Assembly (NCBI GenBank): GCA_013373425.1
Contig: JABXHW010000041.1
Coordinates: forward strand, 1 to 48,154
Reading direction: 5' to 3'
DNA length: 48,154 bases
From: Flavobacteriia bacterium
GTDB lineage: Bacteria > Bacteroidota > Bacteroidia > Flavobacteriales > Schleiferiaceae
Both the position numbers and the translations under genes were made by a program. Under the pieces are notes generated by a model. That model did no database searches, had not been told where the DNA came from, and worked only from the letters and a program-made list of their open reading frames with translations. Each line of letters begins with the position of its first letter. Position 1 is the stretch's first letter. Below, in pieces: positions 9,323 to 23,409 of this stretch.

Positions 9323-10270
9323 ATGAAAAAACTTCTACTTTCTCTTCTCGCATTGATGGCTGTTGATACAGCAGCTCAGGTTCCACGTGCTATCGTGGTG
9401 GAGCACTTCACCAATTCGAGATGTTCTATTTGTGCGAATCGCAATCCTTCGCTCTTCAGCAATTTGGACAACAACCCAAATGTGATGCACATCGCTTATC
9501 ACCCGTCTTCTCCCTACTCAACGTGCATTTTTAGTCAGCACAATTCTTCGGAGAACGACCTACGCACTAATTTTTATGGGATTTATGGAGGTACACCGCG
9601 CATCGTTATCAACGGCGATGTAACGAACAAGAACTTCGGGGATCAAACCCTCTTTGATAATTATCAGAATCAAACTTCGGCATTCGACATTCGAATGAGT
9701 CATACGGCCACAATGGACAGTGTCTTCATTCGTGTAGTCGTAGAAAAAGTTTCAAGTGGAGATAATCAGTACGCCTTAACCGTGGGTTTGGCAGAAGACA
9801 CCATCCACTACAATGCGCCAAATGGCGAAGACCTACACCGCAATGTATTCCGTGAGTTCGCCGTTCACAATCAAACTGAAACTGCAGCCAGTGTTGGCGA
9901 CTCAGTAGTTTACAATTATGCGCTTGAGCGACGTGGAGCGTGGAACGAGAATGCACTCTATGCATACACTCTTCTTCAAGATCCAACATCAGACGACTTG
10001 CTTCAAGCGAGTCGATCTAACAAACAGTCTAATTCAGTAGGCATGGGTGAAATGACTGCGGATAACTTCCGTGCCTATCCCATCCCAGCAAAGAGCACCG
10101 TCACCTTCGATAAATTCGTTCACTATCGCCTCATCGACCTATCGGGAAGAGTTTCCTTGGAAGGCTTCAGCGATCACATGGACGTTTCAAGCATCCCGAA
10201 CGGGATTTATCTGTTAAACGTAAACATCGAAGGCGTGCAAAGAACACTGCGTTTGCCCGTAGTGCATTGA
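9323..10270 (+). CDS. Secreted thioredoxin-like (Omp28-type) protein with type IX sorting domain
   Basis: A 315-aa exported protein. A signal peptide (MKKLLLSLLALMAVDTAAQ) is followed by VEHFTNSRCSICANRNP, with CxxC CSIC in a thioredoxin-like fold typical of Bacteroidota Omp28-like proteins, and then GGTPRIVINGD as the cis-Pro-like segment. The C-terminus (about residues 245-315, FRAYPIPAKSTVTFDK to VQRTLRLPVVH) is a type A sorting domain with the central SSIPNGIYLLNV. It should be delivered to the surface or medium by the type IX system. Its role as a thiol exchanger is inferred from CSIC. A strong terminator follows. Confidence 0.85.
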   Translation: MKKLLLSLLALMAVDTAAQVPRAIVVEHFTNSRCSICANRNPSLFSNLDNNPNVMHIAYHPSSPYSTCIFSQHNSSENDLRTNFYGIYGGTPRIVINGDVTNKNFGDQTLFDNYQNQTSAFDIRMSHTATMDSVFIRVVVEKVSSGDNQYALTVGLAEDTIHYNAPNGEDLHRNVFREFAVHNQTETAASVGDSVVYNYALERRGAWNENALYAYTLLQDPTSDDLLQASRSNKQSNSVGMGEMTADNFRAYPIPAKSTVTFDKFVHYRLIDLSGRVSLEGFSDHMDVSSIPNGIYLLNVNIEGVQRTLRLPVVH

Positions 10271-10296
10271 TTCGCGAGAATTGAGAGAGAGAGAGG

Positions 10297-10326
10297 AACC
10301 TCGGCAGAAATGTCGGGGTTTTTTTG
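10297..10326 (+). terminator. Rho-independent terminator of the Omp28-like gene
   Basis: Positions 10297-10320 fold into a complete 10-bp stem with a GAAA tetraloop (AACCTCGGCA, GAAA, TGTCGGGGTT; two G-T pairs), then a run of T to 10326. The octamer array begins directly after the T run. Confidence 0.9.
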
Positions 10327-10328
10327 TG

Positions 10329-10400
10329 TGTGGACGGGCGGACGTGTGGACGTAGGGAGGTGCGGAAGTACGGAAGCGTTGAGGTATAGGTAGTGGACAG
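10329..10400 (+). repeat. Degenerate octamer array A (G-rich on plus strand)
   Basis: Consecutive octamers starting at 10329 read GTGTGGAC, GGGCGGAC, GTGTGGAC, GTAGGGAG, GTGCGGAA, GTACGGAA, GCGTTGAG, with weaker units to 10400. GG or GGA recurs every 8 nt with substitutions but no length change. It follows the terminator T run at once. No plausible ORF is present. Confidence 0.75.
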
Positions 10401-10416
10401 TTCAAGTTCCATCCAC

Positions 10417-10454
10417 TAGCTCACAAGGTCACCAGCTAATCAGTTCACCTGGAA
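10417..10454. repeat. 38-bp repeat copy 1, itself built of octamers
   Basis: Units AGCTCACA, AGGTCACC, AGCTAATC, AGTTCACC (10418-10449). The 38-bp block matches 10602-10639 with four differences, all transitions. This suggests an older duplication of the block. Confidence 0.75.
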
Positions 10455-10457
10455 TTT

Positions 10458-10494
10458 ACCCACATCCGCACGCCCCTACGTACCTACCTCCACT
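10458..10494 (-). repeat. Octamer array C (G-rich on minus strand, after the queA terminator)
   Basis: On the minus strand, directly after the T run of the queA terminator, GG recurs about every 8 nt (GTGGAGGT, AGGTACGT, AGGGGCGT, GCGGATGT). The strand bias therefore follows queA transcription, opposite to array A. Confidence 0.65.
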
Positions 10495-10518
10495 AAAAAA
10501 CCCCCACCGATTTCTCGG
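10495..10518 (-). terminator. Rho-independent terminator of queA
   Basis: On the minus strand CCCC and CCGA on one side pair with TCGG and GGGG on the other around a TTTC/GAAA loop, with one internal mismatch. A run of T (complement of the A run at 10495-10500) follows. It lies about 140 bp beyond the queA stop, so the 3' untranslated region contains the second repeat block. Confidence 0.75.
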
Positions 10519-10536
10519 CAGGGGTAGAAGATTCTA

Positions 10537-10650
10537 GTGCGGAAGTGTGGAGGTGTTGAAGTGCGGAAGTATGTTTAGAAGGCAGGTCTCCTACCACATA
10601 TTAGCTCACAAGGTCACTAGCTAACCAGCTCACCTAGAACTCATCCACGT
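10537..10650. repeat. Octamer arrays D and E, second copy of the repeat block
   Basis: Units GTGCGGAA, GTGTGGAG, GTGTTGAA, GTGCGGAA, GTATGTTT (10537-10576) repeat the array A pattern. AGCTCACA, AGGTCACT, AGCTAACC, AGCTCACC (10603-10634) repeat the 38-bp block. So the order A then 38-bp block occurs twice, 185 bp apart for the 38-bp part, with the queA terminator between the copies. The whole gap 10271-10656 contains no gene. Confidence 0.7.
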
Positions 10651-10656
10651 CCCTAC

Positions 10657-21605: not shown

Positions 21606-22331
21606 ATGGGACGCGCGTTTGAATATCGCAAGGCAAGAAAGATGAAGCGTTGGGCATCGATGTCCAAAACGTTTACTCGCATTACAAAAGATATCATCAT
21701 GGCAGTGAAGGAGGGGGGCGACAGTCCGGAATCCAACTACCGCTTAAAGATGTTGATGCAGAACGCCCGCGATGCAAACATGCCGAAAGACAACGTCGAG
21801 AGAGCCATTAAAAAGGCGATGTCGAAAGACCAGCAGGACTACAAAGAAGTAGTTTTTGAAGGCTACGCTCCACATGGTATTGCTGTGTTGGTTGAAACAG
21901 CTACCGACAACAATACGCGTACAGTAGCGAATGTGCGCTCTTACTTCAACAAGCACAACGGTAGCTTAGGCGTGAGTGGCTCGGTTGATTTTATGTTCGA
22001 GCACAAGTGCCACTTTAAGATTGCGGCAGAAGGAATCGATATCGAGGAATTCGAGCTTGAGATGATCGATTACGGCGTTGAGGAGATTTTCGCAGATCAC
22101 GACGAGGAGAAGGAGCAAGATATCATCATGCTCTATGGAGCTTTTGCCGATTATGGAAACATCGCTAGTGGTCTTGATGAAAAAGGAATCGAAGTACTGT
22201 CCTCAGGATTTGAACGTATTCCTATGGATCACAAGGAGCTCAGCGACGAGCAGCGTGAAGAGGTGGATAAGCTCATTGAGCGCATTGAGGAAGATGATGA
22301 CGTTCAAGCGGTGTATACGAATATGGCTTGA
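21606..22331 (+). CDS. YebC/PmpR family protein
   Basis: 241 aa, MGRAFEYRKARKMKRW at the start, then KDNVERAIKKAM and YEGYAPHGIAVLVE-type phrases (here FEGYAPHGIAVLVETATDN) that define the YebC family. Members bind DNA as regulators, or help ribosomes through proline-rich stretches in some bacteria; the role here is unknown. It appears to be a single gene with its own promoter and terminator. Confidence 0.94.
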   Translation: MGRAFEYRKARKMKRWASMSKTFTRITKDIIMAVKEGGDSPESNYRLKMLMQNARDANMPKDNVERAIKKAMSKDQQDYKEVVFEGYAPHGIAVLVETATDNNTRTVANVRSYFNKHNGSLGVSGSVDFMFEHKCHFKIAAEGIDIEEFELEMIDYGVEEIFADHDEEKEQDIIMLYGAFADYGNIASGLDEKGIEVLSSGFERIPMDHKELSDEQREEVDKLIERIEEDDDVQAVYTNMA

Positions 22332-22358
22332 TACCAACAGAAATAGAATATTGAAGAG

Positions 22359-22385
22359 CGCTCGGTATTACCGGGCGTTTTTTTT
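22359..22385 (+). terminator. Rho-independent terminator of the yebC gene
   Basis: Stem CGCTCGGT (22359-22366) pairs with ACCGGGCG (22370-22377) around a 3-nt loop, including a G-T pair, followed by eight T (22378-22385). The octamer array starts on the next base. Confidence 0.88.
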
Positions 22386-22585
22386 GTGGAGGGCTGGAAG
22401 GTTGGAGAGCTTGGGCACTGGAAAACTGGAGGACTGGAGGACTGGAGAGTTGGATGAGTGGATGACTGGATTTTCGGACAGCTGGACAATTGGACAACTG
22501 GAGAATTGGAGAATTGGAGAGCTGGAGAGCTGGAGGATTGGAGAGTTAGATGGTGGCAGGTGTGGATAAATGGAAAGTTGGTGAG
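22386..22585 (+). repeat. 200-bp degenerate octamer array (25 units, consensus YTGGANRR)
   Basis: From 22386 to 22585 the sequence divides into 25 consecutive octamers without a single insertion or deletion. Examples: CTGGAAGG, TTGGAGAG, CTGGAGGA, CTGGAGAG, TTGGATGA, CTGGACAA, TTGGAGAA. TGGA occupies positions 2-5 in 20 of the 25. Period 8 is not a multiple of 3, so this is not conserved coding; reading frames across it (for example 22078-22569) are artefacts. It begins on the base after the terminator T run. Confidence 0.9.
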
Positions 22586-22980
22586 GGTTGAATGGAAGAA
22601 CGAATATGGAATTGGGTTGAATGGTGGTGTTTTCGGGAGTTTATACCATTGGGAAAACCCCCAACCCCCTTGGAACAAGGTACTGATTCACTCTCGGAGA
22701 AAGCGAATTCTCACTTAGTGATTTATTAGATTAATCGGTTAGAAACTAGCCGTTTGTAAACGTTTTATTTACGGCTTACATGATAAGTTTTGTGCAATTT
22801 CGCCCCATGGAGTGGGCGGAGTGGGCCCCATACCTTTATATAGCCTACCCCCGGGAGCAAGCCATAATTTAAGTTCTCTTTCCAAGCCCACTTCCTTTTT
22901 CGAACGCCATCTTCAAGAAAGTGATTTCCATCACCTTTTAACCGCTCACGTTTTCCTACCTTTTTTCAAAATTCAACCTC
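22586..22980. other. Intergenic region with inverted repeats, before the OsmC gene
   Basis: No gene is supported. It contains a fading tail of the octamer array, a hairpin CCTTG-GAA-CAAGG (22668-22680), an inverted repeat AGCCGT...ACGGCT (22748-22753 and 22771-22776), and a C-rich stretch around 22650-22672. A -7-like TACCTTTT lies near 22958, upstream of the OsmC gene. Together with the array, the stretch 22332-22980 is the longest gene-free gap in the window. Confidence 0.5.
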
Positions 22981-23409
22981 ATGGAAAAGAAGGAAGTAAC
23001 GGTAGATTATACCGATGGGATGGCCTTCAACGGAAAGGTCGCTCAATTTGATATCCACATGGATGCGAAACCTGAAGTGGGAGGACTTGATAAAGGGCCA
23101 ACGCCAAAGCCATTATTGCTTGTTTCTCTAGGAGGATGCACCGGTATGGATGTGGTGAGTCTTTTGAAAAAGATGCGACAAGAGTACGACTCGTACAAGA
23201 TGAAAATTAGCGGGGAGCAAACCGATGAGCATCCAAAGCACTATCACAAGATTCATGTGGAGTATATCTTTGAAGGGGAATCACTCGACGAAGGCAAGGT
23301 TAAAAAGGCGGTAGACCTTAGTCAGGAGAAATATTGTGGAGTAAGCTATATGCTCAAGCAGGCCGCTGAGCTGACTTATTCAATCACCATTAACGGATCA
23401 ACGATTTAA
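22981..23409 (+). CDS. OsmC/Ohr family protein
   Basis: 142 aa. The two peroxidatic-type Cys are visible, in LLVSLGGCTGMDVVSLLKKM and QEKYCGVSYMLKQAAE, matching OsmC-like thiol peroxidases that act on organic hydroperoxides in the cytoplasm. It ends overlapping the convergent serine hydrolase gene by 12 bp. Confidence 0.92.
   Translation: MEKKEVTVDYTDGMAFNGKVAQFDIHMDAKPEVGGLDKGPTPKPLLLVSLGGCTGMDVVSLLKKMRQEYDSYKMKISGEQTDEHPKHYHKIHVEYIFEGESLDEGKVKKAVDLSQEKYCGVSYMLKQAAELTYSITINGSTI

Follow-up and report, generated by a model that had tools for sequence, protein, structure and literature searches.

Intergenic arrays of 7- and 8-nucleotide repeats show a common strand polarity relative to genes in a Schleiferiaceae genome

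The octamer array that follows yebC in this Flavobacteriia genome belongs to a population of 7- and 8-nt intergenic repeats, of many unit sequences, that is spread across the genome. The G-rich strand of these arrays points outward from the adjacent gene at both 3' and 5' ends. This mostly outward orientation suggests a role at gene borders, perhaps that of barring stray transcription. We tentatively favor a reading in which the arrays are slippage-grown repeats with a selected polarity, most likely one-way insulators of the Rho type.

The window is the whole stretch of DNA that was analyzed, 48,154 nucleotides of contig JABXHW010000041.1. Its array on the plus strand at 22386-22585 has 25 units of consensus YTGGANRR in 200 bases; both coordinates and sequence were verified. 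A recount agrees with the initial annotation that TGGA occupies octamer positions 2-5 in 20 of the 25 units. The array matches itself at 0.66, 0.63 and 0.64 at lags 8, 16 and 24, compared with 0.25-0.27 for the whole window at the same lags. The yebC terminator closes with eight T, the last of them at 22385, and unit 1 opens at 22386, so the array does start on the first base past the T run, as had been described. A register unbroken by any indel had been claimed as well. This holds in that all 20 TGGA units share one phase, but the perfect register is partly an effect of the chosen boundary, because the next TGGA occurrences beyond the array end, at 22593 and 22607, are both out of phase. Constraint on the array had also been proposed, and its columns do look constrained: over the 24 steps between neighboring units, the four TGGA columns change 4, 4, 2 and 3 times and the other columns 16, 12, 12 and 12 times (chi-square p = 7e-4 for the inequality). 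Plain neutral slippage would not give such unequal variability.

The gap between yebC and the osmC-like gene that holds the array is 649 bp long. Three ORFs overlap the array (22307-22678 on the minus strand, 22458-22715 and 22078-22566 on the plus strand), and none has a Pfam family; ORF 22458-22715, the only one of the three run against NCBIfam, has no family there either. In the window no Rfam family reached its gathering score. The stem of the yebC terminator is also part of the computed fold of 22332-22600, which has z = -3.0 with the terminator included in the folded stretch; a consensus terminator scan listed none there. Type IX secretion sorting tails gave weak matches below cut-off, which fit a Bacteroidota host.

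A second array gap of the window, at 10271-10656, lies between convergent genes, the weakly Omp28-like gene and queA, and contains four more segments made of other octamers. The order in this gap is a plus-strand terminator, G-rich octamers, C-rich octamers, a minus-strand terminator, and then a second pair of G-rich and C-rich arrays (Table 1). By eye, C-rich octamer-like sequence at 10460-10494 immediately precedes the second terminator on the plus strand.

Table 1. Features of the two array gaps of the window and their flanking genes, and loci of CTGGATRR arrays in other genomes. Positions are those of the window except in the last two lines, which give locus labels.
Feature	Position	Strand	Basis
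Gene with weak Omp28-like matches	9356-10270		matches below cut-off
Intrinsic terminator of gene 9356-10270, 7 T	10299..10325	+	read from sequence
Second array, units such as GTGTGGAC, GTGCGGAA; starts two bases past T run	10328..10376	+	
Array, units such as CTGGTGAC, CTTGTGAG on minus strand	10414..10451	-	
Intrinsic terminator, queA side	10495..10524	-	from sequence; queA by profile matches
Array, unit GTGCGGAA	10536..10570	+	
Array, units such as CTGGTTAG, CTAGTGAC on minus strand	10603..10634	-	
yebC (YebC/TACO1 family), precedes array	21606..22331	+	NF009044, TIGR01033, PF01709, PF20772 over cut-off
yebC intrinsic terminator: 7-bp stem with one G-T pair, 5-nt loop, 8 T	22359..22385	+	from sequence
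25-unit degenerate octamer array YTGGANRR; G-rich strand is the yebC coding strand	22386..22585	+	
C-rich strand of array, read toward yebC; Rho-utilization-like	22386..22585	-	
C-rich, G-poor side ahead of osmC; 59% of windows are rut-like in the direction of osmC	22781..22980	+	
osmC-like gene, beyond gap	22981..23409	+	PF02566 over cut-off
CTGGATRR arrays, D14_bin-1408	L112, L129, L137, L141, L150, L154, L165		
CTGGATRR arrays, LacPavin MAGs	L088, L102, L122, L126, L148, L149, L151		

The initial annotation would have lost its footing had the genome held no other arrays, but the 75 kb of intergenic gaps within 848 kb of this genome (G000) contain 57 lag-8 and 35 lag-7 segments. Shuffles gave 0-2 segments per sample, and the other lags from 4 to 13 gave 0-3. 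The first sample (448 kb; 199 gaps, 36.7 kb) has 30 lag-8 and 19 lag-7 segments in gaps (about one in shuffles), where multiples of 7 and 8 are also raised, and only 2 lag-8 and 6 lag-7 segments in its coding DNA, which is far larger than the gaps. The second sample (400 kb; 190 gaps, 38.3 kb) has 27 and 16, with 0-3 at other lags. Raw autocorrelation of the gaps peaks at lag 8 (z 9.7), with lower elevations at lags 6 and 4 (5.7 and 4.3). With the DNA of the window array as query, the genome yielded 24 further matches with E <= 10, and for ten of these E was below 0.001. A three-unit YTGGA pattern has 39 matches in this genome, 9 of which are the window array and 30 of which are in 14 other places, versus 7 for the reversed control. 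The octamer units seen are YTGGANRR, TTAGACTG, CTGGTGAG, CTAGTAAC, AGGTGCGC, AGGAACGC, GTGCGGAA and GTAGGGAC, and the heptamer units are GTACTGG, GATACTG, CGAGTAA and ACGCAGA. The 62 arrays with a length of at least 35 nt have a slight folding advantage over shuffles, whichever strand is folded (p about 0.001).

Genes were called by a hexamer ORF caller trained on ORFs of at least 350 aa. It misses some small genes, and one counted gap has the gene of a 23S rRNA intervening-sequence protein inside it (PF05635, L064 4332-4718). That gene lies between inverted octamer arrays with the common unit GGTGCTCA (L064 4155-4813). A GC-rich motif, GAACTTGATGGAGGGGTCGAGGGACTCGGCCCCCGGGGGC with variants, recurs in gaps near arrays (L005, L010, L011, L038) and is possibly another small repeat family.

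Arrays are more frequent between convergent genes (15 of 50 gaps) than in other gaps (37 of 339, p = 0.001). The position of the window array directly behind a terminator had raised the idea that such arrays generally start at terminators. In 11 of 90 arrays, five consecutive T occur in the 20 nt ahead of the array, an enrichment over the 4.3% of random placement in the same gaps (one-sided p = 0.002), but these arrays are a minority and the idea fails as a general rule.

The variety of units also bears on what might read the arrays. A protein or RNA recognizing GGA every 8 nt, with the array as its binding site, would account for the conserved TGGA columns of the window array. Such a reader is quite unlikely, since the period and the polarity are common to many unit types; YTGGANRR is only one of these, and recognition of a single fixed sequence cannot account for all the arrays. 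A GGA-reading protein of the CsrA type is unlikely as well, because CsrA (PF02599) has no match in G000 (96% complete) or in G001 and G002, two genomes of the same genus.

The polarity was scored with the G-rich strand defined as the strand with more G; the counts omit 2 of the 92 arrays, in which G and C are equally frequent. Of the 42 arrays that lie within 50 bp of a gene end, 39 have their G-rich strand directed away from that gene, made up of 27/29 at 3' ends and 12/13 at 5' ends. At 51-100 bp the counts are 13/18 and 9/12; beyond 100 bp they are 5/12 at 3' ends, where the rule is gone, and 5/6 at 5' ends. By gene setting, they are 12/15 for tandem 5', 14/16 for divergent 5', 26/35 for convergent 3' and 19/24 for tandem 3' ends. 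Arrays within one gap are not independent, and therefore per-gap tests were used, with gap halves for the second sample and the nearest gene end for the combined set. In the combined set 37 gaps are for the rule and 8 against, with 7 ties (p = 1.5e-5). Split by gene setting, all four tests lean the same way, one being significant alone (p = 0.003) and the others giving 0.11-0.15. The second sample reproduces the polarity: G-rich arrays are in the left and right halves 16 and 6 times and C-rich arrays 3 and 17 times (19 versus 5 gaps, p = 0.007). The idea of a polarity arose from inspected loci, and three gaps of the second sample were among those already viewed, hence a recount without them: 14/6 and 2/13, with 17 versus 5 gaps and 2 ties (p = 0.017). 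Array-free gaps of at least 80 bp have a weaker left-right skew than array gaps (0.097 versus 0.370), and the array-free convergent gaps (n = 14) show no polarity skew. The polarity had not been seen in the initial annotation, whose interpretation is thus supported in part.

Where G-rich and C-rich arrays form ordered pairs, the G-rich array precedes the C-rich one in 31 of 32 (20/21 in the first sample and 11/11 in the second, or 8/8 without the three gaps viewed earlier). This order would also result if broken ends were healed by a polymerase, template-carrying or untemplated, that put G-rich units on both 3' ends of a break before these were joined. We consider this origin highly improbable. 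Sharing of units between the arms of one gap is not above chance (permutation p = 0.17), and 35 of the 52 array gaps have a single arm type while 17 have both. Ku (PF02735) was not found in any of G000, G001 and G002, so end-joining by Ku is unlikely, and an RVT_1 match is present in G000 only, although G002 also has arrays. A hairpin model was considered separately, as L062, L064 and L060 resemble nested inverted arrays. Arms of the same gap are no more alike than others (15 pairs, p = 0.81; the permutation over 17 gaps gave the p = 0.17 above), and the model was rejected as a general rule.

A stand-alone reverse transcriptase of 283 aa is encoded at L269 1366-2217; it is the sole RVT_1 match in G000-G002, and its best PADLOC model is RT_VI (E 5.6e-57). 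Matches to Y1 (REP-type) transposases number one in G000 (C61:57159-57491, L267), three in G002 and none in G001. The Y1 genes are thus in two array-bearing genomes and absent from G001, a weak association given that only three genomes are involved.

Several described repeats resemble the arrays. The short tandemly repeated repetitive sequences (STRR) of cyanobacteria have 7-nt tandem units, with three types reported in one genome, whereas here period 8 dominates and the units are degenerate. REP elements, which are intergenic hairpins mobilized by RAYT (Y1) transposases, are likewise intergenic repeats, but they are hairpins rather than direct octamers. The likeness to cyanobacterial short repeats noted in the initial annotation proved a good lead, in that intergenic heptamers are the nearest described kind found (PMC4692102, PMC4679880). 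Rehm 2015 describes GGGNATC and GGGGA(C/T)T heptamer repeats in Xanthomonas and Nostoc that are intergenic and form quadruplexes in vitro, and mentions Calothrix heptamers among short repeats (PMC4692102). The G-rich strand of the heptamers is the coding strand within 50 bp past stop codons and the non-coding one in the 50 bp that precede genes, a polarity that the paper discusses in quadruplex terms (PMC4692102). The heptamers and the arrays share the intergenic location, the polarity, the occurrence singly or as inverted pairs, and a length and sequence that vary between relatives (PMC4692102). They differ in that the heptamers have 7-nt units, a preference for four units and quadruplexes, whereas the arrays have 7 and 8 nt, are degenerate, come in many types and mostly lack a G3 motif; the arrays are also, unlike the heptamers as described there, enriched between convergent genes and mostly missing from relatives at the gaps compared (PMC4692102). 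The TAACTGA direct repeats of Beggiatoaceae, cyanobacteria and five Bacteroidetes (MacGregor 2015) are intergenic like the arrays, and two of the Bacteroidetes have long arrays beside other heptamers, while the corresponding gaps of relatives are shorter and have no obvious repeats (PMC4679880). These repeats differ in being one fixed heptamer that is not G-rich, with the Beggiatoaceae copies mostly just upstream of start codons (PMC4679880). Among the matches listed, literature searches found no report on such octamers in Bacteroidetes or Flavobacteriales and no later report of the polarity of GGGAATC.

The arrays belong to a kind already known and are a variant of it, set apart by the period of eight, the degenerate units, the diversity of unit types and a polarity that occurs without G3 quadruplex motifs. 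They consist of head-to-tail units of 6-9 nt in several copies, are mainly non-coding and are present in many copies per genome. The definition in PMC4692102 asks for perfect or near-perfect units, whereas the window array is degenerate, with a lag-8 self-match of 0.66, and it is for this reason classed as a variant and not a plain member of the 6-9 nt intergenic tandem repeats. The same polarity and position in the Xanthomonas and Nostoc heptamers (PMC4692102) could mean that the arrays are G-quadruplex elements, as proposed for the GGGNATC heptamers. The outward G strand within 50 bp is shared with that class (39/42), but a motif of four G-tracts of three or more is found in 3 of 92 arrays, at least four GGG in 5, and 3 have no GG at all. 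Quadruplexes of the G3 type consequently cannot be the general cause, and this explanation is very improbable.

A simple common denominator of the polarity at both gene ends is that the C-rich strand is in the RNA that enters the gene. In the reading that we tentatively favor, arrays would grow inside gaps by slippage or unequal duplication and then mutate, and selection would filter their orientation. The C-rich strand would end up in RNA transcribed into a gene, antisense at 3' ends and read-through at 5' ends, and the orientation may be selected because any RNA running into the gene then carries it. C-rich, G-poor RNA with pyrimidine-C (YC) steps every 7-8 nt may be a good loading site for Rho, and the arrays would act as one-way insulators. 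If only the period and the excess of C over G matter, unit sequences could drift freely. The repeat class, the excess at periods 7 and 8, the polarity and the lineage-specific gain at the gaps compared are observed; growth by slippage and the role of Rho are what we infer.

Rho utilization (rut) was scored in 78-nt windows as C over G together with spaced YC in a chain of six. The minus strand of the window array, which reads toward yebC, is rut-like in 123 of 123 windows with a mean C/G of 4.3, and the other strand in 0. When the same bases are shuffled, an average of 62% of windows still contain the YC chain, and in 5 of 100 shuffles every window does; the rut score of the window array is mostly compositional. 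In the 160 nt beside 5' ends, rut-like windows face the gene in 24 of 47 array gaps and away from it in 4 of 47, while the values for array-free gaps are 23 and 9 of 205. At 3' ends, the setting of the window array, the strict test is weak (13/55 toward, 9/55 away), and the 78-nt test window exceeds the length of most arrays. Rut sites resemble the C-rich, G-poor strand toward the gene with its spaced YC. They are not tandem repeats, however, and an E. coli descriptor counts YC dimers 9-13 bases apart (YC-N9-13), compared with one YC per 8 in the arrays (PMC9160355). Rho is present in G000, G001 and G002. Since the sample of G001 has no array, Rho does not explain the presence of arrays.

About as likely as the Rho-type insulators is that the arrays are neutral simple-sequence repeats, functionless products of slippage with a preferred step of 7-8 nt, whose orientation reflects what the gaps tolerate, for example if G-rich leaders or the loss of a stop codon are harmful. 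That the arrays are gap DNA mostly missing from relatives at the gaps compared is in keeping with this, and a heptamer step was earlier proposed to be the DNA segment held by polymerase (cited in PMC4692102). Stops in all three frames are found on the G-rich strand of 28 of 90 arrays and on the C-rich strand of 5 of 90, which would make an array that lands on a stop codon safer with its G-rich strand outward. Against neutrality, the polarity is equally strong at 3' ends (27/29 within 50 bp) as at 5' ends, and the TGGA columns of the window array are more conserved than its remaining columns.

Relatives in the genus show that arrays were gained in a lineage-specific manner at the gaps compared. 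G001 and G002 keep yebC and osmC adjacent, with YebC 92% and 90% identical. The gap between them is 64 bp in G002 and, in G001, 21 bp by the ORF caller or about 80 by eye; neither holds an array, which makes the window array a lineage-specific addition. The gap before queA is 59 bp without segments in G001 and 897 bp in G002, where five segments have a different unit. A third array gap measures 126 bp in G000 and 44-45 bp in both relatives. Across the three array gaps with matched neighbors, arrays are missing in 3 for G001 and in 2 for G002. Segments of lag 7 or lag 8 are absent from the 60 sampled gaps of G001, and the sample of G002 (63 gaps) has one lag-7 and five lag-8 segments; all five of the latter are in the gap before queA, in a stretch chosen as the orthologue of the window and outside the evenly spaced sample stretches. 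G002 has TTGGAGGG arrays at other places. The exact YTGGANRR pattern is rare; among 60 relatives, only G000 and G002 have four such units.

The G002 gap orthologous to window 10271-10656 has a structure of its own. Its octamer stretches (L230 7402-7737) lie within a head-to-tail cassette of about 93 bp with a hairpin (CCCGAATCGG...CTCTCGGG), and the hairpin part recurs in L080 and L084.

Similar arrays occur in other bacteria. A phylum-wide draw found four YTGGANRR units in 5 of 395 genomes including G000, and the reversed control in 2; with 4 genomes other than G000 against these 2, an excess outside the genus is not clear there. A scan of named species for five YTGGANRR units, without a control pattern, gave at least 117 stretches, of which 80 loci were examined, several sharing a genome. 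Seventeen are inside open frames and 2 have no ORF nearby. For 35 of the listed loci the closest ORF boundary is a 3' end no more than 50 bp away, and in 31 of these the coding strand is the G-rich one. The period score counts masked bases as matches, which affects five listed loci, and without the five that have masked bases nearby the count is 28/31. The 17 loci with ORFs running through arrays were set aside; as many as 7 of them may conceal inward arrays at 3' ends, or 3 if the longest open frame is taken. At 5' ends of these other genomes the rule does not hold, since the listed loci read away in just 4 of 7.

The 3'-end polarity, strong here and in the listed loci of other genomes (31/35), could have arisen by an orientation-dependent expansion, in which G-rich read-through RNA forms R-loops and a repeat expands only if the coding strand behind the gene is G-rich. 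This is unlikely, as the polarity holds upstream of genes in tandem settings (12/15), where the read-through RNA is C-rich.

Arrays of CTGGATRR were observed in a Bacteroidales genome and in two MAGs of Bacteroidetes (Table 1). TGA, TAG or TAA follows TGGA in 141 of 173 units and TGG in one, which places stops in every frame on the G-rich strand.

The polarity spans many unit types, mostly without G3 motifs, at 3' and 5' gene ends. It shifts the question from how quadruplexes act to why the C-rich strand must face the gene. A broader reading, more doubtful than the Rho-type insulators within this genome, is that outward-G arrays of 7 or 8 nt are a general and largely sequence-independent gene-border insulator that has arisen repeatedly in bacteria, with selection on period and strand composition and on neither sequence nor quadruplexes. 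If true, it would unite the octamers of this genus, the GGGNATC heptamers and the TGGA octamers of other phyla.
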